From positions 1-42,308 of the forward strand of contig PNOC01000029.1 in assembly GCA_013824615.1 (NCBI GenBank): a stretch of DNA of 42,308 nucleotides, given 5' to 3'. Shown here piece after piece: positions 757-40,360 of the stretch. This DNA comes from Thermodesulfovibrio sp. GTDB taxonomy: Bacteria > Nitrospirota > Thermodesulfovibrionia > Thermodesulfovibrionales > UBA6898. A model generated the notes under the pieces. The model saw only the letters and a program-made list of their open reading frames with translations, was not told the origin of the DNA and did no database searches. Made by a program: the position numbers and the translations under genes. Numbering within the stretch: position 1 is the first letter of the stretch; each line of letters starts with the position of its first letter.

Positions 757-1113
757 ATGACTGACGTGCTATTATGCTCAAACAACCAGCTCCTGGCAAA
801 AAGCCTGTACGGTATGCTCCGGGACGAAGGGTATTCAGTAGAAACGGCAGACCATCCTGCCCTGGCGGTCCAGATGGTTCTCCGCAAAGAATACACGGCA
901 CTGGTTATTGATTTCGAACCCTTCGGCCTTTCGGTCGATGATGCAGTCAGAATTATCAGGACTATCAGGCCCGAGATCATCGTTTTGTTTGTAGGCAACG
1001 ATGCAGGTGATGATGTCAGCGCAGCCGACGGCCTCAGCATCGGGGCCCCGGTAGACCTTGCAGAATTCAGACAGACGATTCAGACCATGCATCGCCTGAA
1101 ATACGCAAAATAA
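757..1113 (+). CDS. Degenerate response-regulator receiver-like protein
   Basis: A 118-residue stand-alone protein with the alternating beta-alpha pattern of a CheY-type receiver: a first strand DVLLCSNNQLLAKSL, and ALVIDF near residue 50 where the phospho-acceptor Asp (D51) would sit. The N-terminal acidic pair that binds Mg2+ is replaced by S/N residues, and the conserved K-P of the fifth strand is replaced by GAPVDL, so phosphorylation chemistry may be altered or lost. There is no output domain. It lies directly after a sigma-54-type promoter with no clear ribosome site, and 24 bases before the first methyltransferase gene, so it may be a pathway-specific regulator. The receiver assignment is from fold pattern only. 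Confidence 0.6.
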   Translation: MTDVLLCSNNQLLAKSLYGMLRDEGYSVETADHPALAVQMVLRKEYTALVIDFEPFGLSVDDAVRIIRTIRPEIIVLFVGNDAGDDVSAADGLSIGAPVDLAEFRQTIQTMHRLKYAK

Positions 1114-1137: not shown

Positions 1138-2178
1138 ATGGAACCACGCGAGATTATCCTCAAGGCTTTTGAAGGCGGCAAACCTGAGCGGGTGCCGGTA
1201 ACGCTTTTTGGCGGCGGCATGTGGAGCATCAAGGACTATGGCTCAACATTTGAAGCACTCGGCAAAGACCCTGCAATGATGGCCGACATGTGCATCAAGG
1301 AGGCAGAGAAAATCAGAAGTGACGTTATCTATGTCGGCTCAGGCTATAACAACTTTCATGCCTCCTCGCTGGGAACTGCCTTTGGCTGCGGCATAAAATA
1401 CCGGGAAGTTGGCGCGCCTGACCTTACCTCACATTTCGTCAGTTCGGAAGAGGATATCGACAAACTGAATATGGACGACCTCTTCAAGGACCCGGTTATA
1501 CAGAACGTGTTTGAGGCCACGAGACTCGTCAAGAAGGCAATCGGCAATAAATACCTGGTAACCATGACCTGCTGGGGACCCTTTACACTTGCGGCCCGTT
1601 TCGTCGGGGAAGAGACCTTTATGAAGGCTACTTTCAAGAAACCGGCCTTTGTCGAAAAGATGGTCAATTTCTGCGCAGATCTGCTTATCCACCTGTATGA
1701 GCCGCTGGTTGCCGACGGTGCGATTGAATGCCTCAGCATCGCTGACCCTACGGCCTCGGGCGATCTGATCAACCCGAAACAGATGGCCAAGTTTGCGGTT
1801 CCACCCCTGAAGAAGATGAGTGACTGGGCCAAGTCGAAGAACGTCCATACCATCCTTCATATCTGCGGGAATACCGGTGACAGACTGGAACAATTCATAG
1901 ACACCGGCTGCAGCAGCATCTTCTTTGATCAGAAGGTCGATATAGCCAAGGCCAAGGAAGTCCTCTTCGGCAAGATGTCGTTTGGCGGCAATGTGGCCCC
2001 GGTCCATGTGCTCTTGAACAAGACAGCGGCCGAGGTCGAGACCGCCTGCAAAGAGGTGATTGAGATTGCAGGAAAAGACGGCGGCTTTATTCTCGTACCT
2101 GGCTGCGATATTCCGCCGACAATCTCGTATGAGAACCTCAAAATGTTTCACGACACGGCCTTTAACTGGAAATACTAG
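1138..2178 (+). CDS. UroD-fold corrinoid methyltransferase (MtaA/MtoB type), copy 1
   Basis: A 346-residue member of the uroporphyrinogen-decarboxylase-fold methyltransferases (MtaA, MtbA, MtoB/OdmB). The zinc ligands of methylcobamide:CoM methyltransferases are all kept: H241-x-C243 in LHICGN and C323 in PGCDIPP, close to their usual spacing. Family members either move methyl from a corrinoid protein to coenzyme M (MtaA/MtbA) or demethylate methoxy compounds onto the corrinoid protein (OdmB/MtoB). Ribosome site AAGGGGG lies just upstream. It heads a co-directional cluster with MtrH, a corrinoid protein and RACE. It is not HemE: it lacks the heme-pathway context and has the zinc motif. Substrate cannot be read from sequence; a second, diverged copy lies at 3861. 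Confidence 0.85.
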   Translation: MEPREIILKAFEGGKPERVPVTLFGGGMWSIKDYGSTFEALGKDPAMMADMCIKEAEKIRSDVIYVGSGYNNFHASSLGTAFGCGIKYREVGAPDLTSHFVSSEEDIDKLNMDDLFKDPVIQNVFEATRLVKKAIGNKYLVTMTCWGPFTLAARFVGEETFMKATFKKPAFVEKMVNFCADLLIHLYEPLVADGAIECLSIADPTASGDLINPKQMAKFAVPPLKKMSDWAKSKNVHTILHICGNTGDRLEQFIDTGCSSIFFDQKVDIAKAKEVLFGKMSFGGNVAPVHVLLNKTAAEVETACKEVIEIAGKDGGFILVPGCDIPPTISYENLKMFHDTAFNWKY

Positions 2179-2264
2179 ACATAGAGACAGAGAAGGTCCA
2201 CGTGATGGAAGGGAGGTGAGAGGACGCTTAACCGGAGTTAGACAAAAGATGTTTGGAGGCAGCG

Positions 2265-2777
2265 ATGGGATTATTTGATTTTATCAGGAAGCTTCTGGCC
2301 GTAGAGCCGGAAAAAACTACGAGGGAGGAATTAAAAATGGCAGAAAAGATGACAGTTGAACAGGTCAATGCGTACATGAAAGAGAAGTGCGGGTTTGTCC
2401 CGAGAATGTTCCAGATCATCAACACGGTTACCCCTGATCCGGGCAGGACATTTGCCGATTTCTATGAAAGCATCTTCGGCGATGGTGCGATCTCCAGAAA
2501 AAATAAGGAACTTATGTTTATGTCAGGCGGCGTTGCCTACTGCTCACCGCGCTGCATCATCCATGCTCTCCCGGCTGTCAACGCCGGTGCAACAGACGGC
2601 GAGATCTTCGAGGCTGCTGCTGTCGGTATGATCCTGGCAGGTTTTGTACCGGGCGGCCCTGGCATCCCCTATGCATTTGAATATGCCCTCAAGTGCATCG
2701 ATATGGTAGCCAAGTACCGTAAGGGCGAGGCCTGGGAGTATCTGCCGGCTCCGAAGTTTGATCACGGCGTATATTAA
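2265..2777 (+). CDS. Carboxymuconolactone-decarboxylase (AhpD-like) family protein with CxxxC motif
   Basis: A 170-residue alpha-helical CMD-family protein. The core ELMFMSGGVAYCSPRC, a His three residues on, then NAGATDGEIFEA is the AhpD-like active-site region, but the usual CxxC is CxxxC (CSPRC). Such proteins act as thiol peroxidase/reductase partners or decarboxylase-like enzymes; the reaction here is unknown. Two starts are each preceded by a good ribosome site: ATG 2265 (GGAGG 5 bases before) and in-frame ATG 2337 (GGGAGGAATTAAAA). The shorter form begins at the normal CMD N-terminus (MAEKMTVEQ); the 24 extra residues form a short amphipathic stretch. It sits between the first UroD-type methyltransferase and mtrH, suggesting a redox or accessory role in the pathway. 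Confidence 0.8.
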   Translation: MGLFDFIRKLLAVEPEKTTREELKMAEKMTVEQVNAYMKEKCGFVPRMFQIINTVTPDPGRTFADFYESIFGDGAISRKNKELMFMSGGVAYCSPRCIIHALPAVNAGATDGEIFEAAAVGMILAGFVPGGPGIPYAFEYALKCIDMVAKYRKGEAWEYLPAPKFDHGVY

Positions 2778-2791
2778 AGATTAAAAAAAAG

Positions 2792-2824
2792 GGGCAGCCC
2801 GTTCTTGCGGAACGTGGACTGCCC
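2792..2824 (+). other. Intercistronic hairpin before mtrH-like gene
   Basis: GGGCAG (2792-2797) pairs with CTGCCC (2819-2824), and inside it CGTTC (2800-2804) pairs with GAACG (2810-2814) around a 5-nt loop. There is no T-run after it, so it is more likely an mRNA processing or stability element, or a partial attenuator, than a full terminator. It lies in the 97-base gap between the CMD-family and MtrH-type genes. Confidence 0.5.
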
Positions 2825-2874
2825 TGAGGTTAACGACAACCTATTTTACCATAATCTCTATAAAAGGAGTCAGA

Positions 2875-3834
2875 ATGTTTAAATTTGCAAAGGAACAGAA
2901 AGTATTCAACATTGGCGGCATAAAAGTCGGCGGGCAGCCTGGGGAAAACCCTCCGCTGATGATTGCATCGCTGTTCCATAACAAGGACAGTGTCACCAAG
3001 ACAGACCGCAAGGGCAACTTTGACCGCGAAAGAACAAAAGAAATGCTGAAGCAGATGGAGCAGATTTCAGCTGCCACCGGTGTGCCCGGCATGGTCGCCA
3101 TGGTCGCCAACACCCCTGACGAGGCAAAGCTTTACATAGATTTTTATCTTGAAAACACTTCCATGCCTTTCGGCATCGATATGTGGGTTGCTGAGCAGAG
3201 GGCCAAGGCGACGGAATATGTATCGACACTCGGCGTGCAGGACAAGTTTCTCTATAACAGTATCACCCCCTGGGACAAGGATATTCCCGGACAGGTAAAG
3301 CGGCTGAAGGACCTCGGGATAAAGCATGTGGTCATACAGGCCTTTGACGATCAGGACCAGTCACCGGCAGGCAGAATGAAGTCTCTTGAAGCAATACTTG
3401 CCCAGGGAGCAGACTCGTTTGAATCGATTATCGTCGATACCTCAGTCATGAATATGCCCTCAACGTCCTTTTCCCTGGTGGCCAACCGGATGATCAAGGA
3501 AAAGCATGGACTCCCCTGCGGCGGGGCCTACTCAAACGGCACCCATATGTGGAAGGAATGCAAGGAGGCCTGGGGCCTCGACGGGTTCAAGGCCATGGAT
3601 GCCGTGGTGCAGGGCATGTCATCGGCGCTGTGGTCAGACTTTAATTTCAGCGGGCCTGCCATTACAGCCCCCCGGGTCTTCCCGGCCGTGGCAAGTGCCA
3701 ACATACTGCTGTCAACCCTTGTCTATGAGGAAACAGGAGTTATCTATGACTCACCTGAACTGCCGATACGGAAGATGTTTGGTGACTTCATTACCAAGCT
3801 TACCGAAGGCGGCTCAAGGAAAAAAGGCAAATAA
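2875..3834 (+). CDS. mtrH: MtrH-type tetrahydropterin:corrinoid methyltransferase
   Basis: A 319-residue protein of the MtrH family, with the characteristic opening MFKFAKEQKVFNIGGIKVGG, then QPGENPPLMIAS, GNFDRE and a TIM-barrel body. In methanogens MtrH moves methyl between tetrahydromethanopterin and the corrinoid of MtrA. In bacterial and archaeal O-demethylase systems (OdmD, MtvA, MtoA) the homolog moves methyl from the corrinoid protein to tetrahydrofolate/tetrahydropterin. No other Mtr subunit is present, so this is the soluble, stand-alone type. Ribosome site AAAGGAG lies 6-12 bases before the ATG. It is flanked by the two UroD-type methyltransferases, with the corrinoid protein two genes on. 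Direction of methyl flow is not decided by sequence. Confidence 0.9.
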   Translation: MFKFAKEQKVFNIGGIKVGGQPGENPPLMIASLFHNKDSVTKTDRKGNFDRERTKEMLKQMEQISAATGVPGMVAMVANTPDEAKLYIDFYLENTSMPFGIDMWVAEQRAKATEYVSTLGVQDKFLYNSITPWDKDIPGQVKRLKDLGIKHVVIQAFDDQDQSPAGRMKSLEAILAQGADSFESIIVDTSVMNMPSTSFSLVANRMIKEKHGLPCGGAYSNGTHMWKECKEAWGLDGFKAMDAVVQGMSSALWSDFNFSGPAITAPRVFPAVASANILLSTLVYEETGVIYDSPELPIRKMFGDFITKLTEGGSRKKGK

Positions 3835-3860
3835 TAATCCTGAAAGGAGAATCACCTTTA

Positions 3861-4889
3861 ATGAATTCACGTGAAAGAGTCTTAGGTCTTTTCAAAAAAG
3901 AAAAGATAGACAGGGTGCCCTGCTTCAGCGGCATGGGCAACATAACAGAGGCCGGCATTAATAAGCTCGGCTACAAATTCGCCGGCATTCATCTTGATGC
4001 CAAGCAGATGGCGGAAACGGCAGCAACCACCTTCAAACTTTATGGGTACGAATGCGGCGTTATGCCGGTAGACCTCTGCGTCGAGGCGGAGGCCATGGGC
4101 TGCCAGATCAATGTCTATCCTCACGCTGAGGGCATACTCTACCCGACAATCAAGGAAAAACTTATCCATAACGAAGCAGAAATGGATACCATTACCCTCC
4201 CGGCAAACATGGGAGAACTGGGCCGCGTGCCGATGATGCGCGAGGCGATTAAACTGCTGAAAGCCGATATCGGCAAGGATGTCGCTATCGGCTCCTATGT
4301 CCTCGGGCCCTTCACCCTGGCCGGTCAGATCATGGAACTGAACGACCTGCTGAAGCTTTCCTTCAAGAAGGCTGACAAAGTCGCCAAACTGCTCGATCTT
4401 ATGGCAGATGCGATTATCATCGTGGCCAAGGAATTTGAAAAGGCAGGCGTCGACTACATAACGGTCAGGGAGATGGGCGCCACCAGCGACGTGCTGAGTC
4501 CGCGGGTATTCAAGAACCTGATCGCCCCTCCGCTTAAGAAGGTGATCAGCCAGATTTCGGTCCCCTCGGTGCTGCATGTCTGCGGCAAGACAAACGACAT
4601 TGTCACCACGATGGTGGAAACCGGACCGACCGCGATAAGCGTGGAACAGAAGAACGACGTTGCAGAAACCAGGAAGAAACTGGGTGACGACGCCCTTATC
4701 TTCGGAAACATGGATGCCTATAATGTCCTTGTTTCCGGAAGTGAGGAGCTCGTCCGCTCGACCGTAAGGAAATGCATAGACGATGGGGTGAATGCCGTAT
4801 GGCCCGGCTGCGATATCTGGCCGTCAGTCCCCCCGGCAAATATGTTAGCAATGATGGATGAAACAAATAAATATGGAGGTAAAAAGTAA
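3861..4889 (+). CDS. UroD-fold corrinoid methyltransferase (MtaA/MtoB type), copy 2
   Basis: A 342-residue second UroD-fold methyltransferase. It carries the same zinc triad as copy 1: H239-x-C241 in LHVCGK and C317 in PGCDIWP, but differs through most of its length, so the two are not recent duplicates and may act on different substrates (for example a methyl donor on one side and coenzyme M on the other). AAAGGAGAATCACC precedes the ATG. Its stop overlaps the start of the corrinoid-protein gene by one base (TAATG), so the two are translationally coupled; this makes copy 2 the probable direct partner of that corrinoid protein. Family assignment is firm; whether it is MtaA-like or MtoB-like is open. 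Confidence 0.85.
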   Translation: MNSRERVLGLFKKEKIDRVPCFSGMGNITEAGINKLGYKFAGIHLDAKQMAETAATTFKLYGYECGVMPVDLCVEAEAMGCQINVYPHAEGILYPTIKEKLIHNEAEMDTITLPANMGELGRVPMMREAIKLLKADIGKDVAIGSYVLGPFTLAGQIMELNDLLKLSFKKADKVAKLLDLMADAIIIVAKEFEKAGVDYITVREMGATSDVLSPRVFKNLIAPPLKKVISQISVPSVLHVCGKTNDIVTTMVETGPTAISVEQKNDVAETRKKLGDDALIFGNMDAYNVLVSGSEELVRSTVRKCIDDGVNAVWPGCDIWPSVPPANMLAMMDETNKYGGKK

Positions 4890-5575
4890 TGGCAGATGAG
4901 GCACGCAAAAAGGAAATTTACGAGAAGCTCAGAAACGGTGTTATCCAGTATGATGAAGATGCCTGCAGAGAAGGGGCCCAGGAAGCACTGGACGCAGGAC
5001 TCGACGCCAACGAGGCGATCTTTGACGGCCTTGTTTCAGGCATGGAAGAAGTCGGCAGACTCTTTGAGGCACAGGAGTATTTCGTGCCCGAGATCCTGAT
5101 GTGCGCTGACGCACTCTATGCCGGACTGGACATCCTCAAGCCGCACTGCAAGCAGATGGACCTCGGAGTCAGAGGATCCGTGGTCATCGGTACCGTCGAA
5201 GGCGACGTCCATGACATAGGCAAAAACCTTGTCAAGATGATGTTCGATGTTGCCGGTTTTCATGTTTATGACCTTGGCAGGGACGTTCCCCTCGACAAGT
5301 TTGTTGATGAGCAGCTCAAGACCGACTCTGAACTGGTCTGCCTGTCAGCCATGATGACCACCTCAATGGTCGGCATGCCGACGGTCATCGAAAAGATCAA
5401 GGCAAAGAACCCCGACTGCATGATCATGATCGGTGGAGCACCTACCTCAAAGGACCTCGCTGACAAATGGGGCGCCGACGGTTATGCTGAAGATGCCAGC
5501 AACGCACTCAAAGAAGCAATCAAGATGGTAGGCTTTCTCAAAAAACTGAGAGACGAGAAGCTTAACAAGAAATAG
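4889..5575 (+). CDS. Methyltransferase corrinoid protein (MtaC/MtoC type)
   Basis: A 228-residue cobalamin-binding protein. Residues 1-90 are the helical B12-cap domain, and residues 95-225 the Rossmann B12-binding domain with the base-off/His-on motif GDVHDIGKN (D106, H108, G111), followed by the SAMMTTSM and IGGAP segments of that fold. It carries the methyl group as methyl-Co(III) between the methyltransferases encoded just upstream. Co(I) becomes accidentally oxidised to Co(II), which explains the RACE activase two genes downstream. The start ATG overlaps the stop of the upstream gene. Length and domain order match MtaC, MtbC and MttC-type proteins. Confidence 0.93.
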   Translation: MADEARKKEIYEKLRNGVIQYDEDACREGAQEALDAGLDANEAIFDGLVSGMEEVGRLFEAQEYFVPEILMCADALYAGLDILKPHCKQMDLGVRGSVVIGTVEGDVHDIGKNLVKMMFDVAGFHVYDLGRDVPLDKFVDEQLKTDSELVCLSAMMTTSMVGMPTVIEKIKAKNPDCMIMIGGAPTSKDLADKWGADGYAEDASNALKEAIKMVGFLKKLRDEKLNKK

Positions 5576-5582
5576 GCAACGG

Positions 5583-6230
5583 GTGGATGCAGAACCGCTG
5601 AAGCGTTTTCTGAAAACCGAAGGCGCAACACTTGTCGGCATCGGTGACGTTACGGCGGCGCTCTCAAGCGAGATTATCCATCTCAGGCGGGGCATTGCAA
5701 TTGCGGTCAACCGCAACCTTAACAGGGAAACGGTTGACCAGCTCATCCGCCTGCAGGCCCTGGCAGAGGGATGGCTGAGGGCAAAGGGGTACCGGAGTCT
5801 TTCGATCCCTGCTGACTCAGACAGAAAAAAAGACAAAATGATCACGAAGCTGTACAAGCTCTTCTGTCACAAGACGGCAGCGACGTGTTCAGGTCTGGGT
5901 TGGGTGGGCAAGAACGGGCTGCTCATAAACCGGGAGTACGGTTCGAAGCTTTCGTGGGCAACCGTCCTTACCAATGCGCCCTTCAGGGCAGATGCCCCGA
6001 CCTCACAGTCCGAATGCGGAGACTGTGACCTCTGTGTCAGACACTGCCCCTCGGGGGCGGTAAAAGGCGAACACTGGACGCTGGCTGATCCCCTCAAGGA
6101 GATCGTTTCATATGAAAAGTGTCGCGCGCTGAAGACCAGGAGGATCTCGCATAGCAGCAAGCCGAACTGCGGGTTCTGCATAACCGTCTGCCCTTATTCA
6201 CGTAATGGAAACAATCACGGGACAACATAA
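5583..6230 (+). CDS. QueG-like double [4Fe-4S] protein, corrin-pathway associated
   Basis: A 215-residue protein with a region like epoxyqueuosine reductase (HKTAATCSGLGWVGKNGLLI, residues 97-116) and two [4Fe-4S] binding sets: C145, C148, C151, C155-P and C180, C196, C199, C203-P. QueG and reductive dehalogenases use cobalamin with such clusters. This version is shorter than QueG (about 350 residues) and lacks its N-terminal half, so it is probably an electron donor or corrinoid-handling ferredoxin rather than a tRNA enzyme. The start is GTG 5583, 8 bases after the corrinoid-protein stop, with no good ribosome site; coupling to the upstream gene is likely. It may feed electrons to RACE for corrinoid reduction; that is inference from context. 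Confidence 0.75.
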   Translation: MDAEPLKRFLKTEGATLVGIGDVTAALSSEIIHLRRGIAIAVNRNLNRETVDQLIRLQALAEGWLRAKGYRSLSIPADSDRKKDKMITKLYKLFCHKTAATCSGLGWVGKNGLLINREYGSKLSWATVLTNAPFRADAPTSQSECGDCDLCVRHCPSGAVKGEHWTLADPLKEIVSYEKCRALKTRRISHSSKPNCGFCITVCPYSRNGNNHGTT

Positions 6231-6251
6231 CTGAAAATACATAGGGGTATC

Positions 6252-6304
6252 ATTCCGGCCCGTCCGGAATCGGCCTTTAATAATGATCCCGGACTAACCG
6301 GGAT
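6252..6304 (+). other. Tandem hairpins before the RACE gene
   Basis: Two adjacent perfect 7-bp stem-loops: ATTCCGG (6252-6258) with CCGGAAT (6264-6270), loop CCCGT; and ATCCCGG (6286-6292) with CCGGGAT (6298-6304), loop ACTAA. The stems resemble each other (ATYCCGG), suggesting a duplicated element. No T-run follows. The location between the QueG-like gene and RACE, 32 bases before the RACE start, points to mRNA processing or partial read-through control. Confidence 0.5.
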
Positions 6305-6335
6305 GACGAATGATACATATCAGGAGGATTGCTAT

Positions 6336-8330
6336 ATGAGCCGTAAATTCAAGGTAATATTCCAGCCGGCAGGCCGGCGTGGAGAAATAGAAGAAGGAAC
6401 CACCATACTTAAGGCGGCCCAGCAGCTGGGGGTTGACCTCGAAGCACTCTGCGGCGACAAAAAGGTCTGCGGCAAATGCAAGGTCAGGATAGAAGAAGGT
6501 TATTCAGAAAAAGACAATCTCGAATCTGGCATGGCTCATATCACGCCGCTGGAGCCGACTGCCGAGGAACTGAAGCATATCAAGCCGGAAGACGGCCCGG
6601 GTATCAGACTGGCCTGCTCCTGCGAAATACATGGGGACCTGAAGGTATTCGTACCGGAGAGGTCACGCGCCGGAAAGCAGGTTGTCAGAAAAGCAGCCGG
6701 AGAACTGACAATCGCCCTCGATCCTGCAGTAAAAAAGTATCCGCTGACGATGACTCCCCCCACCCTGCACGATATGACCACCGGTGACTACGAACGGGTC
6801 GTCAAGGCGATGGAGGATATCTACGGCATTAAAGACCTGAAATTTGATTTTGAGGTGCTGCTGCAGCTGCAGGACGCCCTCCGAAACGGCAACTGGACCA
6901 TCACGCTTACGGTCTGGCAGGGCAAAGAGATCATTAAGGTTGAGGCCGGGCATGTAGACGTATGTTACGGACTGGCCGTGGACGTCGGGACGACCACTTG
7001 CGTCGGGTACCTCTGCGATCTCAGCACAGGCAAGGTCATTAATACCGAATCCATGATGAACCCGCAGGTGCCGTATGGAGAGGACGTCATGTCGCGTATT
7101 ACCTATGCCATGACGAATCCTGAAGGCCTCAAGACCATGCAGAATGCGATCATCACAGGCCTTAACGAGATCATCAACAAGGTTTGTGCCGAAGTCCGGA
7201 AAGATGGCGCTAATCCGGGTTATGCAATCGATGACCTGACGATCGTCTTCAACACGGCGATGCATCACATATTCCTCGGGCTTAACCCCATTTATATCGG
7301 TCGTTCTCCGTTTATCCCGGCTGTTCAGAAATCGCTGGATATCAAGGCGCGCGACCTGGGGCTGAAGATCAACCAGGGGTCCTTTATCCACGTTCTGCCG
7401 ATCGAGGCAGGGTTTGTCGGTGCGGATAATGTAGGCGTTCTGATCGCAAGGGAACAATACTTCCAGGACGACATGGTGCTCGTCATCGATATCGGTACCA
7501 ATGGCGAACTGCTCCTTGGCAACAAAGACCGTGTATGTTCAACCTCCTGCGCAACCGGGCCTGCCTTCGAAGGGGCGCAGATCAAATTCGGCATGAGGGC
7601 CGCACCTGGTGCTATCGAAAAGGTAAGGATTGACCCGATCACCAAGGAACCCCAGTACAAGGTTATCGGCAAGGCAGACTGGCACACCCATATTGAAGGC
7701 AAGATCAATGCAAAGGGTATCTGCGGCTCCGCAATTATCGATGTGATCGCCGAGATGTTCAAGGCAGGCATTATCGACAAGACCGGGAAGTTCGTACCTG
7801 ACGCAAAGACCAATAGGGTCAGAATGGACGCAGCAGACGGCAAGCCGGAATATGTCCTTGCCTGGGCTGAAGAGACCTCCATCAATCAGGATGTCACCGT
7901 CACCCAAGGCGATGTCAGGGCCCTGCAGCTTGCAAAGGGTGCGCTCTATGCCGGTGTAAAGCTTATGATGCAGAAGATGGGTATCAAGAATATTGACCGT
8001 GTAGAGCTCGCAGGAGCCTTCGGCAGCCATATCGACCGGGAGGCGTCGCTCTGTCTCGGCCTGTTCCCTGATGTGCCTATCGAAAAGGTTGTTGTCGTCG
8101 GAAATGCGGCTGGTGACGGAGCGCGGATGACGCTTCTGAACAAGAGCAAGCGGATAGAGGCAGACGAACGCGCCCGCTGGGTCGAGTTCGTCGAGATCGC
8201 GACAGAGCCGACGTTCGAGAAGGAATTCATGCAGGCGATGCATATACCGCATATGAAGGACAAGTTCCCGAACCTCAAGACCATGTTGGAGGAGCAGAAA
8301 GCTCCCATAGCCTCCAGCATCAAGGGATAA
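6336..8330 (+). CDS. Reductive activator of corrinoid enzymes (RACE; DUF4445/ASKHA family)
   Basis: A 664-residue RACE protein. Residues 1-105 form a plant-type [2Fe-2S] ferredoxin domain (C39, C45, C48 and C94); after a linker, the DUF4445 ASKHA ATPase domain begins with YGLAVDVGTTT (about 211-221) and carries VIDIGTNGEL and the late GAFGSHID and VVVGNAAGDGA motifs. RACE proteins use ATP and low-potential electrons to reduce Co(II) back to active Co(I) in the corrinoid protein, here the one at 4889. ATG 6336 is preferred over in-frame ATG 6303 because TCAGGAGGATT precedes it and the ferredoxin fold starts directly. MtoD and the O-demethylase activating enzymes are the nearest functional equivalents. 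Confidence 0.93.
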   Translation: MSRKFKVIFQPAGRRGEIEEGTTILKAAQQLGVDLEALCGDKKVCGKCKVRIEEGYSEKDNLESGMAHITPLEPTAEELKHIKPEDGPGIRLACSCEIHGDLKVFVPERSRAGKQVVRKAAGELTIALDPAVKKYPLTMTPPTLHDMTTGDYERVVKAMEDIYGIKDLKFDFEVLLQLQDALRNGNWTITLTVWQGKEIIKVEAGHVDVCYGLAVDVGTTTCVGYLCDLSTGKVINTESMMNPQVPYGEDVMSRITYAMTNPEGLKTMQNAIITGLNEIINKVCAEVRKDGANPGYAIDDLTIVFNTAMHHIFLGLNPIYIGRSPFIPAVQKSLDIKARDLGLKINQGSFIHVLPIEAGFVGADNVGVLIAREQYFQDDMVLVIDIGTNGELLLGNKDRVCSTSCATGPAFEGAQIKFGMRAAPGAIEKVRIDPITKEPQYKVIGKADWHTHIEGKINAKGICGSAIIDVIAEMFKAGIIDKTGKFVPDAKTNRVRMDAADGKPEYVLAWAEETSINQDVTVTQGDVRALQLAKGALYAGVKLMMQKMGIKNIDRVELAGAFGSHIDREASLCLGLFPDVPIEKVVVVGNAAGDGARMTLLNKSKRIEADERARWVEFVEIATEPTFEKEFMQAMHIPHMKDKFPNLKTMLEEQKAPIASSIKG

Positions 8331-8344
8331 GGCCGAGCCGTCAC

Positions 8345-8686
8345 ATGACTAAAATAAGGATAAACCCCGGGGCCTGCGGCTTTGAAGCAATGGTGGAGCT
8401 GAAACAGAAGGACAAAAATACTGTTACGGTCAGCATCTCTTCCGAGTGCAAAATGGTCGAAAAGCTTGGCCAGGAACTGAACGAACTGGCCATGATGGAC
8501 GCCTTCAGGCATCTCCTGGGAAATCCTGTGTATGTAAAGGGGGCAGCATGCCTGAAGCATGCTGCCTGCCCTGTTCCAAGCGGCATTCTGAAGGCGCTCG
8601 AGGTAGAAGCAGGTTTTAATGTACCAAAAGATGTAACCATGACCTTCATAAAGGAGAACTCAGAAACAGAAGAGAAGCAGGAATGA
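8345..8686 (+). CDS. Small four-cysteine protein of the methyltransferase cluster, function unknown
   Basis: A 113-residue soluble protein starting MTKIRINPGACGFEA. It has four cysteines (C11, C35, C69, C75); C69 and C75 lie in GAACLKHAACPVPSG. The spacing could bind a metal or Fe-S cluster, but no known motif is matched with confidence. The start is 14 bases after the RACE stop, so it probably belongs to the same transcript, and the C-terminus is charged and glutamate-rich. I do not recognise the family securely. The context suggests a small accessory protein of corrinoid methyl transfer. Confidence 0.65.
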   Translation: MTKIRINPGACGFEAMVELKQKDKNTVTVSISSECKMVEKLGQELNELAMMDAFRHLLGNPVYVKGAACLKHAACPVPSGILKALEVEAGFNVPKDVTMTFIKENSETEEKQE

Positions 8687-8714
8687 TCCGGTTTCAGACG
8701 AATAACGGAACTAT

Positions 8715-8742
8715 TAAAGAAATTACTCTTTTATACCGATTA
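8715..8742 (+). promoter_or_regulatory. Possible sigma-28 (FliA) promoter for the chemoreceptor gene
   Basis: TAAA at 8715-8718 and ACCGATTA at 8735-8742 resemble the FliA consensus TAAA-N15-GCCGATAA, with a 16-base gap. Chemoreceptor genes are commonly FliA-dependent, and the MCP start is 66 bases downstream. The match is imperfect. Confidence 0.35.
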
Positions 8743-8751
8743 TTTAGTACA

Positions 8752-8781
8752 ATTAGGCGTACGGGGTACGCTTCCGCTAAT
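8752..8781 (+). other. Long hairpin in the leader of the chemoreceptor gene
   Basis: ATTAG (8752-8756) pairs with CTAAT (8777-8781), and inside it GCGTAC (8757-8762) pairs perfectly with GTACGC (8766-8771) around GGG. It lies between the putative FliA promoter and the ribosome site AAAGGGAG. It could be the 3' end of the methyltransferase transcript or a leader structure; no T-run follows. Confidence 0.45.
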
Positions 8782-8807
8782 ACTAAAATAAAAGGGAGTA
8801 ATAGACC

Positions 8808-10358
8808 ATGTCCGTCCTTCAGGTAATTCTCATCGTACTTATAATACTTTCTGTTGGTTTCAATTTTTTTCTGTTTTTCAGGCCCCGTACCGGCGACTTT
8901 AATAAATTTTTGCATACGTTTTTTGCAAAAAATATGGCTGGCCGTATAAGCCTTGCAAACACCCTTGAAAAAACCGGGGTGGGCGACCAGATCCAAAAAG
9001 AAAGCATATCCTTCCTGAATGAATTCATCCTGAAACTCAGACAGATACTCAGAAACAGCTTTTCGATAGGACATAACCTCACAACGACCTCAGACTCAAT
9101 GAAAAACGATGCCTCAAGACTGCTTGAAATGGCGGACAGTACCAGCATGCAGTCGACCCAGGTCGCTACTGCCATGGAGGAGATGAGCACCACCATCAGC
9201 GAGATAGCCAGAAATGCCTCTACCGTGGCAACCTCAAGCGTCTCAACCCTTGATAATGCGAGCCAGGCGGAACGTGACATAAACGAGAATGTACGGAGCA
9301 TTGAGATACTCTCAGGCAACGTATCGAACTGGGCTGAAACAAACAGGGCACTCTCTCAGGCAACCCATAAAATAGATGAGATCATCCTGGTCATCAACGA
9401 TATCGCCGACCAGACAAACCTGCTTGCCCTGAACGCGGCGATCGAGGCGGCCCGGGCAGGTGAACAGGGACGCGGCTTTGCGGTTGTTGCCGACGAGGTG
9501 AGGAAGCTTGCAGACAAGACCGGGAAGGCTACCAAAGAAATAGGCGGGATGATCCGGGATGTAAAGACCAAGGCCGACAACTCCCTCGGCACCATGGATT
9601 CGACGCTCTCCGGGGTGACCGAAAGCATACAGAGATCAAGAAGCGCTGAAGAGTCGCTGGTAAAAATCGTATCCGAAGTGCGGCAGATCACGGACATGAT
9701 CCAGCAGATAGCAACAGCATCAGAGGAACAGTCCAAGGTCTCGGAAGATGTTGTTGCGAATATGGAGAAGGTGGCCAGCTATGCAAACGAAACCAAGAGT
9801 CTCGCTCAGCACATAGCAACCTCAGGAGACTCTGTTGCCTCTCTGGCGATAAACCTGTACAGCAATCTCTGCGGCCTGAAAAAGGACCCCCTTGACGAGG
9901 CCATGGAGGGCCTGCTTATATCGTGTTCGTCAACTTTTCAATCAATGCTTGAAGAAGCAGTCAAAGCGGGAAAGGTTACACACAATGCCCTGTTTGATGA
10001 CAATTACGTCAAGTCCGGCGAAGAGGGAAAACTTTCCACGGGGGGCACGAGGTTCTTTGAGGACTCGGTACTTGCGCTGCTGAAACAATGGGTCCAGACA
10101 GACAAAAAGATAATTTATGTCGTAGCCATGGACAGAAACGGCTATATGCCGACACATCTTATGCCGGCCCGCTCAGGACTCAAGATGAGCGACCCTATTT
10201 CGCTCAATGGCGCCCGGAGTGAAAAACTGATCGGTCAGGCTTTCAGGCGGCCCATAGCTGCGGGCGGAGAACTGGTCATTGATATCGCGCATCCGGTTCT
10301 GCCGGGCGGCCGCCATTGGGGATGCCTGAGAATCGGATATATGCCGGATATGTCGTGA
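8808..10358 (+). CDS. Methyl-accepting chemotaxis protein with C-terminal cytoplasmic sensor
   Basis: A 516-residue chemoreceptor. It has a single N-terminal membrane helix (residues 2-25) and no periplasmic domain. Residues 45-350 are the coiled-coil signalling region, with the hairpin tip [20 protein letters not shown] followed by [20 protein letters not shown] that contacts CheA/CheW. After residue 365 comes a C-terminal domain ending in [17 protein letters not shown] and [17 protein letters not shown]; the DRNGYxPTH element is found in C-terminal sensor domains of some MCPs. The receptor therefore probably senses an intracellular or redox/metabolic signal. Ribosome site AAAGGGAG precedes the ATG. 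Its place between the methyltransferase cluster and the CoM operon suggests taxis linked to this metabolism; that link is inference. Confidence 0.9.
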
Positions 10359-10385
10359 TATATGGCCACAGTGCCCGGTAAGTGA

Positions 10386-11072
10386 ATGTATCAGCTGCTG
10401 GCTGTTGCTGCCTATATTGTTTATACTGTCTTCAGCCTGCGCCTTTTGTGGCACTTTCTGATATGGGTCAGAGCATCCCATGCCAACAGGGGGGTCTTTC
10501 GCTTTAAACTCAGTACTTCATTCAACACGGTGCTGCTCATGGCAATTGACCTTATTTCATTCAGAAGAGTCATGATCGCCAGCGGTCCGCTCTGGGTTGG
10601 CTCTCTGATCTTTCATCTGTCGTTCCTGCTGGTGTCCCTGGGGCACCTCAGATACTTTACCGACCCCGTCCCTGCCTGCATACAGGACCTGCAGCCCCTT
10701 GGGCTCATTGCGGGGTACCTCCTGCCGGCGTCTGTCATCTGGCTGTTGTCGATCCGGACCCTGTCAGTTAAACACCGGTATCTGACCTGGCACAACTATC
10801 TGATTCTTGGACTGGTACTCTGCATCAGCACGGGGGGACTGCTGCTCAGGACTGTCTTCAGGACCGACCTGGTTGCAATAAAAAGTTTCGCCTACGGGCT
10901 GCTCACACTGCAGCCCGCTCTGCTGCAGGACGCTTACCTCTTTGCCCTGCATTTCGCCCTGGTACTGATCCTGGTCCTGATACTCCCGTCGCATATTTTT
11001 TCTGCTCCTCTGATCATCATGGAGGCCAGAAGGCGCGAGCAGGAACTGAGGATGGTAATGCATGACCGCTGA
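10386..11072 (+). CDS. HdrE/NarI-like membrane cytochrome b subunit
   Basis: A 228-residue integral membrane protein with about five helices and the fold of NarI, DsrM and HdrE. Histidines inside helices that could hold two b hemes are seen in HLSFLLVSLGHLRYF (about residue 79) and in ALHFALVLILVL with a following PSHIF near the C-terminus. It would pass electrons between the membrane quinone pool and the Fe-S subunit encoded next. Its length fits HdrE, and the stop overlaps the start of the HdrD-like gene by 11 bases. Without the next genes it could equally be called DsrM-like; the partner and the CoM genes make an HdrE role the favoured reading. Confidence 0.8.
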   Translation: MYQLLAVAAYIVYTVFSLRLLWHFLIWVRASHANRGVFRFKLSTSFNTVLLMAIDLISFRRVMIASGPLWVGSLIFHLSFLLVSLGHLRYFTDPVPACIQDLQPLGLIAGYLLPASVIWLLSIRTLSVKHRYLTWHNYLILGLVLCISTGGLLLRTVFRTDLVAIKSFAYGLLTLQPALLQDAYLFALHFALVLILVLILPSHIFSAPLIIMEARRREQELRMVMHDR

Positions 11073-12300
11073 TAAGACAGAAGACCAGACTGCAGGATCC
11101 TTTACCGAAAACCTCTCGATGCTCCAGATGATAGAGCTGGACGCCTGTACTCAGTGCAGAGAATGTCTCAATGTTTGTCCTGTTCAGGAGGTGACCGGGA
11201 ACCCGGCGGTCTCTCCGCCGGAGAAGATAAGAATGTTCCGGGAGTTCATAAAAGCCACGGCCGGCCTTAAGTCCCGCTTTCTGAAACCAAAGGAAATCGA
11301 CCGCAAACTGCTCGAGGACTTCACAAAGGCGGTATTCGAATGCACCACCTGCGGTGCCTGCGGCAAGCACTGCACCGTGGGTATCTTTACGCAGAGGCTC
11401 TGGCCATTCCTGCGCAAGGAGATGATCTCCCGCGGGCTGGTTGATTTCAAGATCCTGACTGATATGCCCGAAGCAATCAGAAATACCGGCAACCCCTATA
11501 ACCTGCCGGCAGAAGACCGGTATCACCCGTGGCTTCCTGCGGGCATCACCATAGCAGAACAGTCGGAACTTGCCTATTATGCCGGCTGCACCGGCGCCTA
11601 TACTGCTCAGCCCATGGTTAAAGGAGACGTCAGCGTCCTTAATGCCATCGGCGACCCCTTCACCATGCTGAAAGAGGAAGATGAGGTCTGCTGCGGCTTC
11701 CCCCTGTTTATTTCAGGACAGCATGATATGCTGGAGGACCTTACCAGAAGACTGGTCACCTCCTATCAGGCCAAGGGAGTAAAGACCCTGATCTGCTCGT
11801 GCCCCTGCTGTGTGAATATTATGACCCGCGAGTGGCCGGTATTTTATGGGAAAGAACTGCCCTTCAGAATAATGCATATTACCCAGTTCGTTCTGAATGC
11901 CTTAAAACAGGGGAAGATTCGGATAACAGCCGGGCTGAAGACAAGGTTGATCTATCACGATCCCTGCTACCTCAGCAGAGGGGTAGGAGTCATCGAAGAG
12001 CCGAGGGAAATCTTGAGGAGCATCCCGGGAGTCCAACTCCTGGAATTCGAGCGCCACGGGCTTAACTCGCGCTGCTGCGGGGCCGGAGGCGCTGTCCGGA
12101 AGGTCTATCATGAAAATGCCATGGCCATGGGCAGGCTTGCCATTGACGAAGCCGTTGCCAAAAAAGCCGACCGCCTCGTCCTGAGCTGCCCGGCCTGCTA
12201 CGGCAAGGTGAATGAGGCCATGGTTGGTCATGACAAACAGATCCCCATCGTCGATATCATGGAACTTATAGCAGGACTACTGGAAAGGAAACAGATATGA
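11062..12300 (+). CDS. HdrD-like [4Fe-4S]/CCG-domain heterodisulfide reductase subunit
   Basis: A 412-residue protein with the HdrD layout. Two [4Fe-4S] sets come first (C29, C32, C35, C39-P and C93, C96, C99, C103). Two CCG domains follow: YYAGCTG, EVCCGFPLF, CSCPCC; and HDPCYLSRG, SRCCGAGGAV, SCPACY. CCG cysteines in HdrB/HdrD bind the non-cubane clusters that split the CoM-S-S-CoB disulfide; related proteins (DsrK, HmcF, TmcB, GlpC-type) use other substrates. Length is close to methanogen HdrD. It overlaps the cytochrome gene upstream by 11 bases and cysteate synthase downstream by 4 (ATGA). The family is certain; disulfide-of-coenzyme-M as substrate is inferred from operon context. Confidence 0.85.
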   Translation: MTADKTEDQTAGSFTENLSMLQMIELDACTQCRECLNVCPVQEVTGNPAVSPPEKIRMFREFIKATAGLKSRFLKPKEIDRKLLEDFTKAVFECTTCGACGKHCTVGIFTQRLWPFLRKEMISRGLVDFKILTDMPEAIRNTGNPYNLPAEDRYHPWLPAGITIAEQSELAYYAGCTGAYTAQPMVKGDVSVLNAIGDPFTMLKEEDEVCCGFPLFISGQHDMLEDLTRRLVTSYQAKGVKTLICSCPCCVNIMTREWPVFYGKELPFRIMHITQFVLNALKQGKIRITAGLKTRLIYHDPCYLSRGVGVIEEPREILRSIPGVQLLEFERHGLNSRCCGAGGAVRKVYHENAMAMGRLAIDEAVAKKADRLVLSCPACYGKVNEAMVGHDKQIPIVDIMELIAGLLERKQI

Positions 12301-13550
12301 GCCACTTTACCATCCGCTGCCGAAAATGCGGCAAAGAACTTAAAGACGTCTATTGTGCCTTCTGTGAACATTGCGACAATGCCCTGCTCCTGACCGAGTA
12401 TAGCGATCCGCTCAGGAATGACCTCGGCGAAGGTATCTGGAAATTCAACTGGCTTCCGGTCCACACGCCTTCCTTCAGTCAGCCCGGCACCGTCGTGTAC
12501 CGGTCCGAATGGCTCGCAAGGCATTGCGGTCTCGACAACCTGTATATTGCCTTTAATGGGTACTGGCCTGAACGCGGCGCATTTCTTCACACCTGCACCT
12601 TCAAGGAATTTGAGGCTGCGGTAGTTCTGCAGAATGCCAGGGAGAACGGCGTGAAAGGCCTGATCGTGGCCTCTGCCGGCAATACAGCCCGTGCATTTGC
12701 CCATCTCTCTATCGTCTCGAAATTCCCTGTGCTGATAGTCGTGCCAATGATGTGCCTGATGGAAATGTGGTATCTCGAAAGCTCCTCGATGGTGCCGACT
12801 CTGGCTGTCGGGGATGGAGACTATTCCGACGCCATTGACGTGGCCAAAAGAATTGCAGCCATATCCGGCTTCCCGTTTGAGGGGGGCGTTCGCAATGTAG
12901 CGAAAAGAGACGGGCTTGGCTCAACCATTCTGGAGGCGGTCTCGGTCATCGGCCGCATGCCTGATCACTACTTCCAGGCTGTCGGCAGCGGAACCGGCGG
13001 AATAGGCGTATGGGAGATGTGCGAGCGGCTCCTGCGGGACGGCCGTTTTGGAGACAGATTGCCCAGACTTCATCTGGCGCAGAATAGTCCTTTTGTCCCG
13101 ATGGTCCATGCGTGGGAACAGGGCAGCAGGAAGCTCTTTGACGAGGACCTGAGGCCTGAGCTTATCGGCCAGATTTCGACGCGGGTACTCTCAACCCGCT
13201 ATCCTGCCTACTCGATCCAGGGCGGAGTCTTTGATGCCCTCACCGCCACCAGCGGAAAAATGTATGGAGTCACCAACCGGGAAGTATTTGAGTCGATGGA
13301 AATATTCAGCAACCTCGAAGGCGTTGATATCGTTGCAGCCTCCGGCGTTGCGGTGGGAGCCCTTATACAGGCCGCCCGGTCCGGTAAGATATCGCCCAGA
13401 GAAACGGTGCTTCTGAATATCACCGGCGGCGGCGAGGTAATACTCGGGAGAGAGAGAAAAAGGTACAACGTGGAACCCATGTTCCTTTCAAAGAAAATCA
13501 CCGACAAGGAGATAGATGAGACCCTATGTTCAATCCTGAAGCCGAACTGA
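12297..13550 (+). CDS. Cysteate synthase (PLP-dependent, coenzyme M biosynthesis)
   Basis: A 417-residue fold-type II PLP enzyme. It makes L-cysteate from O-phosphoserine and sulfite, the first step of the Methanosarcina-type coenzyme M pathway. Visible features are an N-terminal Cys-rich ribbon (C8, C11, C20, C23, C26), LYIAFNGYWPERGAF and TCTFKEFEA with the likely PLP lysine K103, the phosphate loop ASAGNTARAF (125-134), and the very characteristic stretch RNVAKRDGLGS then DHYFQAVGSGTGGIGVWE and LPRLHLAQN. These distinguish it from ordinary threonine synthase, its ancestor. The ATGA overlap with the hdrD-like gene and the 25-base overlap with comDE show tight coupling. Presence in a bacterial genome is unusual. 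Confidence 0.88.
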   Translation: MSHFTIRCRKCGKELKDVYCAFCEHCDNALLLTEYSDPLRNDLGEGIWKFNWLPVHTPSFSQPGTVVYRSEWLARHCGLDNLYIAFNGYWPERGAFLHTCTFKEFEAAVVLQNARENGVKGLIVASAGNTARAFAHLSIVSKFPVLIVVPMMCLMEMWYLESSSMVPTLAVGDGDYSDAIDVAKRIAAISGFPFEGGVRNVAKRDGLGSTILEAVSVIGRMPDHYFQAVGSGTGGIGVWEMCERLLRDGRFGDRLPRLHLAQNSPFVPMVHAWEQGSRKLFDEDLRPELIGQISTRVLSTRYPAYSIQGGVFDALTATSGKMYGVTNREVFESMEIFSNLEGVDIVAASGVAVGALIQAARSGKISPRETVLLNITGGGEVILGRERKRYNVEPMFLSKKITDKEIDETLCSILKPN

Positions 13551-14674
13551 TCAGCATTATGCAGGAAGCAGGGACGGATTTCACCGCCTCCCTCCCCTGC
13601 GAAAAGATAAAGACCCTGCTGGAGATGCTGGGCGATCGCTTCCCGCACCTGCCGCTGACACGCGAAGAAGAGGGGGTTGGTATATGCGCCGGCGCAGCAC
13701 TTGCGGGAAAGCATCCGGCCATGTTCGTACAGAGCTCCGGCATCGGAAATATGCTGAACGCCCTGCTCTCCCTGACCCAGTTCTATGAACTGCCTCTCGC
13801 CCTCTTCATCAGTCAGAGAGGCATTTACAAGGAACGGATCGCCGCTCAACTGCCGGTGGGGCAGAGGCTGCCCGGAATGCTCAGAGGCGCTGGTATCGGC
13901 TATTCCGTAATAGGATCAGCAGCCGACTTTAAACTCGTGAGAAAGAAACTTGCAGAGGTCTACAGGAAAAATATTATTCATGCCTTTCTGCTCAGCCCCG
14001 CGATCTGGGAGGGGTCGGAGGCAAAACAGGCGGCAAGCGGCAGGCTGCAGGCTCCGATCTGCATACAGCAAGCTGCAGGAAGCAAGCGGCAAGCGGCAGG
14101 CTATAAACCACAGGCGCCGCGTTATACCCGCTATGAAATACTAGAGATCATCGCCCCCTGGCTCAAAGGGAAGGCTGTGGTCTGCAATCTGGGGATACCC
14201 TCGAAGGAGCTGTACGCGATTCTGAATCAGCCTTCCAATTTTTACATGCTCGGCAGCATGGGTATGGTGACACCCATCGGCCTCGGCATTAGTTTAACCT
14301 CAGACAAGGAAGTAGTGGTGATTGATGGGGACGGCAGTATTCTGATGAACCCCGGTACGCTTGCCACGGTCGCCTTCAGCAACCCGAAGAACCTGACTAT
14401 CATCGGGATCGACAACAGCTCCTACGGGTCGACCGGGAACCAGCAGACGCTGACCGGGAAGTGCGTTGATCTTGCACTGGTGGCAGAGGGCTTCGGAATG
14501 CATAACTCAATAAAGGCCGCAACAAAAAAGGAGCTTATCGCTGCCATGAAACTTAAAACCAGCGGACCAAAGTTCATCCACGCCCTTTCCGTATCCGGAA
14601 ACAGCGATGCCCCGAATATCCCCATCGGGCATATTGAGATAAAGGAACAGGTATGGGCCTTTCTGGCGAAGTAG
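13526..14674 (+). CDS. comDE: Fused sulfopyruvate decarboxylase ComDE
   Basis: A 382-residue TPP enzyme joining both halves of sulfopyruvate decarboxylase, which makes sulfoacetaldehyde for coenzyme M. Residues 1-163 are the alpha (ComD, PYR) half, with the cofactor Glu in TREEEGVGICAGAALAGK (E49). Residues 200-382 are the beta (ComE, PP) half, with CNLGIPSKELYA, FYMLGSMGM, the TPP/Mg motif GDGSILMN (D269, N275) and DNSSYGSTGNQ. The join (about 166-198) is a low-complexity Ala/Gln/Gly stretch encoded by 17-base direct repeats, see the repeat entry. Phosphonopyruvate decarboxylase is the close alternative, but adjacency to cysteate synthase decides for ComDE. The fused form is known from Methanosarcinales. 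Confidence 0.88.
   Translation: MFNPEAELISIMQEAGTDFTASLPCEKIKTLLEMLGDRFPHLPLTREEEGVGICAGAALAGKHPAMFVQSSGIGNMLNALLSLTQFYELPLALFISQRGIYKERIAAQLPVGQRLPGMLRGAGIGYSVIGSAADFKLVRKKLAEVYRKNIIHAFLLSPAIWEGSEAKQAASGRLQAPICIQQAAGSKRQAAGYKPQAPRYTRYEILEIIAPWLKGKAVVCNLGIPSKELYAILNQPSNFYMLGSMGMVTPIGLGISLTSDKEVVVIDGDGSILMNPGTLATVAFSNPKNLTIIGIDNSSYGSTGNQQTLTGKCVDLALVAEGFGMHNSIKAATKKELIAAMKLKTSGPKFIHALSVSGNSDAPNIPIGHIEIKEQVWAFLAK
14030..14102 (+). repeat. 17-bp direct repeats in the ComD-ComE linker
   Basis: GCGGCAAGCGGCAGGCT occurs at 14030-14046 and again at 14086-14102, 56 bases apart. Because 56 is not a multiple of three the copies are read in different frames, so the repetition is at DNA level. Flanking sequence is made of further CAGGCT/AAGCGGC/GCTGCAGG pieces. 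It behaves like a small repetitive element inserted without breaking the gene exactly at the junction of the two enzyme domains. Confidence 0.65.
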
Positions 14675-18457: not shown

Positions 18458-19027
18458 CTAGTCTATAAAAAGATATCCGTATGACCCGATACGACCGTCC
18501 CTCACCGGCCATGCATATACGGTGGAACTGGCTGTCTTGGTGCCATAGCAGGCAAATGAGGTGACCAATCCTTCCAGATTAGTGCACCAGGCCCGCGACT
18601 GGTCCGCCACAAGGGTCGTTGCCGACCAATAGAAAGATGACTGTACATTGTTAAAAACATTTCCCTGTGCCCAAACTGCAACCCCAGAGCCATCTGTCAG
18701 CCTTGGGTCCATGCCCTGTTTTTTGGCACTTGCGGTCATCGCCATCCATTCCGTCTCGGTAGGCAACCGCCAGTCTCCTGCAGATGAACCATCATTCAAG
18801 CTGCAGATGCCCTGTCCAAGCCCTGCTGCCCAATTCATCGCATCATACCAGGACATTGCACCCGCGCAATTGGCGTTCTTAAGCCATATCAGCCCACCCC
18901 GGCAGTCTGTGACCGTGCCGTCGTTGTTGTCCTCATATCTGCCGCCATCGTTGCAGTCGGCTGCATATCCTGAAACGCACAGAGATAAAAAAAGTATGCT
19001 CGCCAGCCCTATAGACCATGTTTTCAT
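18458..19027 (-). CDS. DUF1566 (Lcl C-terminal-like) secreted protein, copy 1
   Basis: A 189-residue exported protein with a signal peptide (1-22, ending SGYAA). The DUF1566 domain follows: CNDGGRYEDNNDGTVTDC, GLIWLKNANC, GDWRLPTETEWMAM, NNVQSSFYWSATT and WPVRDGRIGSYGYL. DUF1566 domains resemble formylglycine-enzyme/C-lectin-like folds and occur in surface or periplasmic proteins of unknown function; paired cysteines suggest disulfides. ATG 19027 follows GGGAG. It is the most 3' of three tandem paralogs sharing the same architecture. Confidence 0.85.
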   Translation of the reverse strand: MKTWSIGLASILFLSLCVSGYAADCNDGGRYEDNNDGTVTDCRGGLIWLKNANCAGAMSWYDAMNWAAGLGQGICSLNDGSSAGDWRLPTETEWMAMTASAKKQGMDPRLTDGSGVAVWAQGNVFNNVQSSFYWSATTLVADQSRAWCTNLEGLVTSFACYGTKTASSTVYAWPVRDGRIGSYGYLFID

Positions 19028-19065
19028 ATAAACTCCCTTTAAGTACCGTAATCCGTCAGATGGGA

Positions 19066-19659: not shown

Positions 19660-19693
19660 ACCGTCCCCCTTTTCAAAGATAACAGGCATCAGC

Positions 19694-31352: not shown

Positions 31353-31367
31353 GCCATCCTCCGTGAA

Positions 31368-31880: not shown

Positions 31881-31894
31881 GCATACCTCCCTGA

Positions 31895-34848: not shown

Positions 34849-34925
34849 GCCTCGAACATTCTGCATAATTCTTTTGCTATCGGCAGTTCCCGCTCTTTCA
34901 GGCTAAGAAGGTTTGTTCTATCCAT
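34845..34925 (-). CDS. Possible 26-residue small ORF coupled to SDR copy 1
   Basis: ATG 34925 opens a 26-codon frame (MDRTNLLSLKERELPIAKEL, then CRMFEA) whose TGA overlaps the start of the downstream SDR as ATGA. No ribosome site is seen before it, and I recognise no family. It may be a coupling or leader peptide, or chance; it fills part of the 165-base gap between two SDR genes. Confidence 0.25.
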   Translation of the reverse strand: MDRTNLLSLKERELPIAKELCRMFEA

Positions 34926-35013
34926 AATTGTGCTATTTTAATCTATCGGGATGGCTAAATGGTAGGTCACCACCACGACAACAAGATAATCGTGCAGGTG
35001 ATAATTGAGCAGT

Positions 35014-35976: not shown

Positions 35977-35988
35977 GCTGTTGCCCAG

Positions 35989-40359: not shown

Positions 40360-40360
40360 G

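Follow-up and report, generated by a model that had tools for sequence, protein, structure and literature searches.

Coenzyme M (CoM) is best known from methane-making archaea, and in bacteria it is known, so far as we are aware, from alkene-epoxide metabolism alone; the route to CoM in Xanthobacter is ComA-like. The locus described here, positions 1138-14674 on the forward strand of a 42,308-nucleotide window (the whole stretch of DNA analysed) of contig PNOC01000029.1 from Thermodesulfovibrio sp., a Nitrospirota metagenome-assembled genome (MAG), joins genes of CoM synthesis to genes of corrinoid methyl transfer. It is read, with a probability of roughly 0.62, as one operon for a soluble, CoM-dependent corrinoid methyl-transfer module that is independent of methyl-CoM reductase (Mcr) in an anaerobic, non-methanogenic bacterium. 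ComA was not found in the host genome (3.6 Mb, completeness rating 100%), and a search for mcrA (PF02249) in the whole of that genome and in 14 others returned none, which extends to the full genome the absence of mcr that a sequence-only reading of the locus had noted for the window.

Among described systems, MtaABC, MtbA and MtsAB of the Methanosarcinales share with this locus a corrinoid protein, a UroD-fold zinc methyltransferase for CoM (here predicted), an activase and a route to CoM through cysteate synthase and ComDE (here likewise predicted), whereas the operon here has no Mcr, no methanogen-type MT1 and no ComF, has MtrH with tetrahydrofolate (H4folate) as predicted acceptor, and has a bacterial host. 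The Mto, Odm and Mtv systems (PMC8630106) and CdmBCA (PMC13222342) likewise combine a UroD protein, a corrinoid protein and a methyl-H4folate methyltransferase in one operon, with an activase in Mto; the present operon differs from them in its His-x-Cys...Cys (HCC) zinc site, its two UroDs on the MtaA side and its CoM biosynthesis and HdrDE genes, and CdmB, unlike these UroDs, is without zinc. Type 1 mlp clusters (Kountz and Balskus 2023, PMC10418091) resemble it in having at least two MtaA-like UroDs with HCC sites, a corrinoid protein and RACE, all in one direction and in non-methanogens, but not in its MtrH (2875-3834), cysteate synthase, ComDE and HdrDE, and their definition requires that no H4folate methylase lie within 20 kb (PMC10418091). 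Xanthobacter alkene-epoxide carboxylation (cited in PMC10418091) has in common only CoM in a bacterium, differing in its CoM route and in the lack of methyl transfer. A Hydrothermarchaeota genome (Ca. Pyrohabitans) with cysteate synthase-ComDE and no Mcr has a cluster with relatives of UroD1, CMD, HdrD, UroD2, the corrinoid protein, RACE and MtrH, but this cluster is archaeal and rearranged, and the CoM genes lie apart from it; in Carr 2019 (PMC6775978) the only remark is that there may be another fate for methyl-CoM. No description of a bacterial operon of such composition was found in the open-licence PMC literature, in agreement with the sequence-only reading, which knew of none.

Every gene which that reading had named is present, all on the forward strand, and the operon with the gene directly upstream of it is composed as follows:

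757-1113 (+): response-regulator-receiver-like gene, directly upstream of the operon (Pfam Response_reg 23 bits, below the cut-off of 30)
1138-2178 (+): UroD1, UroD-fold protein of zinc S-methyltransferase type (PF01208, 193 bits)
2253-2777 (+): CMD/AhpD-like protein (PF02627, 27.5 bits)
2875-3834 (+): predicted MtrH-family methyl-corrinoid:tetrahydrofolate methyltransferase (PF02007, 164 bits; NCBIfam MtrH-family 322, above the cut-off of 287)
3861-4889 (+): UroD2, predicted MtaA/MtbA-like methyl-corrinoid:thiol (CoM) methyltransferase (PF01208, 230 bits; PRK06252 248.9, above 244)
4889-5575 (+): corrinoid protein (PF02310 and PF02607; DVHDIG cobalamin motif at residue 106)
5583-6230 (+): QueG/RDH-like double [4Fe-4S] protein, probable electron donor (PF13484; eight invariant Cys)
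6303-8330 (+): RACE, AcsV-like corrinoid reductive activase (PF14574, PF17651, PF17650; AcsV model 470 bits, below the cut-off of 800)
8345-8686 (+): DUF6951 protein (PF22263)
8808-10358 (+): methyl-accepting chemotaxis protein, accessory (PF00015)
10386-11072 (+): HdrE/DsrM-like membrane cytochrome b (DsrM model 70.5 bits, below cut-off; about five transmembrane segments, four invariant His)
11062-12300 (+): HdrD-like iron-sulfur protein (PF02754; two strict CCG motifs and two [4Fe-4S] motifs)
12297-13550 (+): cysteate synthase, archaeal CoM type (TIGR03844 460.5, above 324.9)
13526-14674 (+): ComDE, predicted fused sulfopyruvate decarboxylase (alpha, TIGR03845 174, above 148; beta, TIGR03846 219.7 against a cut-off of 221.5)

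Intergenic gaps are small, and four pairs overlap (UroD2/corrinoid protein, HdrE/HdrD, HdrD/cysteate synthase and cysteate synthase/ComDE). Scans for promoters and terminators yielded no more than in shuffled sequence.

Conservation of this arrangement was assessed by fetching the neighbourhoods of 57 cysteate synthase genes from the same order and mapping the window proteins onto them. UroD1 and cysteate synthase were on one stretch in 34 of these loci, on a single strand and in the order UroD1-CMD-MtrH-UroD2-corrinoid protein-Fe-S protein-RACE-DUF6951-(HdrE)-HdrD-cysteate synthase-ComDE, with identities to the window proteins of roughly 45-97% for most genes and lower for HdrE; many of the remaining loci are interrupted by contig ends. 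Local exceptions include L065, where an ATP-binding cassette (ABC) importer separates HdrD from cysteate synthase, L080, which lacks HdrDE, and a few loci in which HdrE was undetected. As far as contigs extend, the same arrangement appears in 15 further loci, some in other orders of the same class and some in a second class of Nitrospirota. Carriers thus comprise dozens of Nitrospirota genomes spread over many families within one order, over further orders and over a second class, and the relatives drawn from named collections were Nitrospirota, including Thermodesulfovibrionia. A gene of the same family as the upstream response-regulator-like gene precedes the operon in 37 fetched loci, the CMD/AhpD-like protein shares 62-93% identity with its counterparts in relatives and 58% with that of Pyrohabitans, and the chemotaxis gene is found in the operon of few relatives only (L037, L069, L071, L224, L227).

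Across 176 genomes of the order, 58 carried both UroD1 and cysteate synthase, 5 UroD1 only, 2 cysteate synthase only and 111 neither (Fisher p = 6e-38). As this p-value ignores shared ancestry, physical linkage is the stronger argument, and the recurring gene order across the phylum far exceeds chance. Both genomes with cysteate synthase only are incomplete and have the gene at a contig edge. The sequence-only reading had raised the prospect that the methyl and CoM blocks occur independently of one another; given these counts and the joining of the blocks in most informative loci, they do not within this order. Contamination by an archaeal contig was rejected, since single-contig chromosomes (G144/CP070737 and G002) carry the same operon, as do dozens of independent MAGs. 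Among the bacteria inspected outside Nitrospirota, cysteate synthase occurred without ComDE and without the methyl block, while its pairing with ComDE is the combination seen in most methanogen loci.

The H-x-C...C zinc triad of both UroDs, as anticipated from the sequence alone, aligns with that of MtaA (PDB 4ay7), the closest solved relative of both proteins, and is invariant in all 91 sequences compared (45/45 for UroD1 and 46/46 for UroD2). This HCC ligand set marks S- and Se-methyltransferases, and O-demethylases substitute the Cys ligands (PMC10418091). The UroD1 profile matched MtaA at 130 bits against 46 bits for CdmB, and UroD2 alone matched MtaA at 160 bits with no CdmB match at E <= 1e-5. 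A possible affiliation of both UroDs with MtoB and OdmB, which had been named as a contrary outcome, was thus addressed in part: both are far closer to MtaA than to CdmB, the only solved MtoB-like demethylase and hence the proxy in the PDB search, and the trees were built without MtoB or OdmB sequences. In a maximum-likelihood tree UroD2 was sister, with support of 97/90, to a clade uniting MtaA and MtbA from archaea, which had been recognised by NCBIfam models, and UroD1 formed a separate, strongly supported clade. When the mlp-type proteins of Acetoanaerobium were added, the UroD2 fork was not resolved, and UroD2 did not group firmly with those Mlps.

On the side of CoM synthesis, cysteate synthase clears its curated cut-off well, the alpha portion of ComDE passes and the beta portion is 1.8 bits short; the phosphonopyruvate decarboxylase model scores 196 on ComDE, far under its own cut-off of 312. 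Of the five UroD1-only genomes, two (G173 and G174) are informative. In G174, which is devoid of both cysteate synthase and ComDE, an importer composed of an exported SsuA-family protein (187 bits, above 163.5), a permease and an ATPase lies inside the methyl block, between RACE and DUF6951; G173 has this insertion as well and is likewise without cysteate synthase, but retains ComDE. The insertion recurs in L055, L059 and L065, in the last between HdrD and cysteate synthase and with a permease and ATPase resembling the Tau/Ssu type. Making or importing the same aliphatic sulfonate therefore looks like a pair of alternatives serving the methyl block, and an ABC transporter specific to CoM, whose genes include ssuA and ssuC, is described in Methanosarcina (PMC12068725).

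A second, cytosolic SsuA-like protein of 304-312 amino acids lies 5 bp after ComDE in all five Hydrothermarchaeota (L125, L130, L132, L139, L141), and about 22 Nitrospirota loci (e.g. L108:17702-18637) also have it close to ComDE; its gene is not near the window operon, the rest of the host genome not having been searched for it. This protein, whose predicted fold is matched by TauA/SsuA and by the Thi5 enzyme, is a candidate sensor, carrier or missing CoM synthase. DUF6951 has no PDB relative by sequence, and no member was seen in the Pyrohabitans loci read. Its predicted fold is IscU/SufU/SufE-like (AlphaFold pLDDT 89), an assignment that is suggestive only, since these proteins, among the top structure matches, score at Z ~6; with invariant Cys11, Cys35, His72 and Cys75, it could be a sulfur carrier to CoM or an Fe-S cluster carrier to RACE.

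MtrH is by sequence of the stand-alone kind, with the methylcorrinoid:tetrahydrofolate methyltransferase structure 6sj8 among its best matches, and folD lies within the operon in eight relatives; for both reasons H4folate is likely the pterin used. An acetyl-CoA synthase (ACS) gene is present in the host genome. The two strict CCG motifs of HdrD and the four invariant His of HdrE, which predict a two-heme cytochrome b, are fitting for a quinone-linked disulfide reductase. Close to the operon, six loci (L036, L055, L059, L068, L073 and L078) encode a second HdrD-like protein (26-28% identical) together with a cytochrome b resembling NarI, in some cases in addition to the usual HdrDE.

Set beside the observed gene content, linkage, motifs, trees and lack of mcr, operation in the manner of CoM-dependent methyl transfer is a prediction well supported by genomic evidence; CoM as the product, the substrates, the direction and the role of HdrDE are what we infer in the following scheme. 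Cysteate synthase and ComDE would yield sulfoacetaldehyde, a CoM precursor, and the final step to CoM would fall to an enzyme other than ComF or to free sulfide. The corrinoid protein would be held as Co(I) by RACE and the Fe-S protein, MtrH would exchange methyl groups between H4folate and the corrinoid protein, UroD2 would do so between the corrinoid protein and the zinc-bound CoM thiol, and UroD1 would serve a second S-methyl compound. Overall, methyl groups would be exchanged among CoM, H4folate and an S-methyl substrate and would most likely feed the Wood-Ljungdahl pathway, while HdrD and the cytochrome b would exchange electrons between the quinone pool and a CoM-derived disulfide.

Several observations weigh against this reading. 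ComF/COG1900 (TIGR03287, PF01837), the accepted last enzyme of CoM synthesis (PMC12068725), was found neither in the host genome nor in 19 of the 21 other genomes tested, the search returning only ferredoxin-domain cross-matches outside G174 and G186; because it is absent from the host and from most carriers, including the Hydrothermarchaeota, CoM synthesis is incomplete on paper. UroD2 falls below the equivalog cut-offs for MtaA (238.6 < 400) and MtbA (160.3 < 600), passing only that of the PRK06252 subfamily (248.9 > 244), and since it also has no known activity it is counted as a predicted rather than a proven CoM methyltransferase; UroD1 is below even the subfamily cut-off. Related UroD clusters act on methyl-selenium or methyl-sulfur in organisms not known as CoM makers (PMC10418091). 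In L035 and L051 (genomes G171 and G172) the CoM genes lie apart from the methyl block, and L080, L118 and L119 are without an adjacent HdrDE, which would therefore be dispensable there. On the first of these points, M. acetivorans without MMP16 (ComF) still grows when sulfide is present (PMC12068725), so a sulfide-rich cell may not need ComF. The two COG1900 (MMP16-like) genes of G174 (L081, contig C95) lie by UPF0280-like, HdrD/GlpC-like, molybdopterin-enzyme and 2-oxoacid oxidoreductase-like genes, and this locus, which has no CoM genes, was rejected as a CoM locus.

The strongest rival explanation is that the UroD and corrinoid genes salvage methyl-sulfur or methyl-selenium compounds as mlp clusters do, without using CoM, and that cysteate synthase and ComDE make another sulfonate or only sulfoacetaldehyde. 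HCC UroDs in Mlp clusters have been linked to methyl-selenium demethylation without CoM (PMC10418091), a probable selenocysteine formate dehydrogenase is encoded in the window and ComF is missing. However, the mlp definition excludes the H4folate methylase that is central here, no CoM genes have been reported with mlp clusters and UroD2 does not firmly join the Acetoanaerobium Mlps, while some other reason would be needed for two observations, namely that cysteate synthase and ComDE are so closely linked to the methyl genes and that a sulfonate importer is found in genomes from which cysteate synthase is missing; this explanation is considered rather unlikely. An ordinary O-demethylase of the Mto/Odm/Mtv type acting on methoxylated compounds, with CoM genes adjoining by chance, would share the same four core parts, namely UroD, corrinoid protein, MtrH-like protein and activase (PMC8630106). 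It appears highly improbable given an HCC zinc site in every UroD sequence where O-demethylases replace the Cys ligands (PMC10418091), a much weaker match to the MtoB-like CdmB than to MtaA, and CoM gene linkage kept across the phylum.

The same module could instead run toward CoM methylation. In that case MtrH, the corrinoid protein and UroD2 would together form a soluble, non-pumping counterpart of Mtr that makes methyl-CoM from methyl-H4folate and CoM, and this methyl-CoM would be used by UroD1 to methylate another thiol or would be excreted. Transfer from methyl-pterin to CoM is the exergonic direction, as for Mtr, the ACS gene probably signifies a Wood-Ljungdahl methyl branch, and a single corrinoid protein is common to MtrH and an MtaA-like UroD. 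Against this stands the lack of any recognised methyl-CoM-consuming enzyme, Mcr being absent, and this alternative is considered rather unlikely.

A related cluster of about 16 kb in Ca. Pyrohabitans jungbluthii has UroD1 (46% identity), CMD (58%), HdrD (40%), UroD2 (53%), corrinoid protein (62%), RACE (57%) and MtrH (42%), together with an Fe-S protein and OsmC, and cysteate synthase-ComDE elsewhere. UroD1 was present in all five Hydrothermarchaeota genomes examined, which also carry the cysteate synthase-ComDE pair closest to that of Nitrospirota, and mcrA (0/5) and COG1900 (0/5) in none. In the trees made, the nearest relatives of Nitrospirota UroD1, UroD2 and cysteate synthase were Hydrothermarchaeota proteins; the Nitrospirota cysteate synthase was sister to that of Hydrothermarchaeota on the archaeal side, and the cysteate synthases sampled from cyanobacteria, Bacteroidota, Spirochaetota, Aminicenantes and Gemmatimonadota formed a different clade. 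The simplest reading is that the module was exchanged between Mcr-free Nitrospirota and Hydrothermarchaeota. Cysteate synthase without adjacent ComDE was observed in L146, L158, L160, L171, L172, L177 and other loci (cyanobacteria, Bacteroidota, Spirochaetota), and such enzymes perhaps serve other sulfonates such as sulfonolipids.

Elsewhere in the window, on the reverse strand, an FdnG-type formate dehydrogenase (25657-28815) has an in-frame TGA at residue 206 (ARI-U-HSATVAAL), for which reason it is a probable selenoprotein and a plain open reading frame call splits the gene in two; it is followed by an Fe-S subunit (24811-25644) and NrfD (23672-24814). Three tandem Lcl_C-domain proteins of similar architecture are encoded at 18458-20284 (-), and sugar epimerases, a radical SAM/B12 protein, a GHMP kinase, a split transketolase and a glycosyltransferase at 29593-42117 (-) are probably a surface-polysaccharide cluster.

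More broadly, and only tentatively, at somewhat less than even odds, CoM may be a methyl carrier in an Mcr-unrelated metabolism common to Nitrospirota and Hydrothermarchaeota, linked to H4folate/Wood-Ljungdahl flow and, via HdrDE, to the quinone pool, with a new last-step CoM enzyme for which DUF6951 and the cytosolic SsuA/Thi5-like protein are candidates. The operon suggests which proteins might complete CoM by another route, and it gives a concrete, testable answer, with a gene set, to the fate of methyl-CoM in Mcr-free archaea, which had been left open (PMC6775978). The operon also cautions against taking a metagenome's CoM genes, MtaA-like proteins or HdrDE as a sign of methanogenesis. The carriers are MAGs, several of which come from groundwater, sediment and other subsurface samples according to their records, and a methyl-sulfur or methyl-group cycle in the subsurface may have been overlooked.

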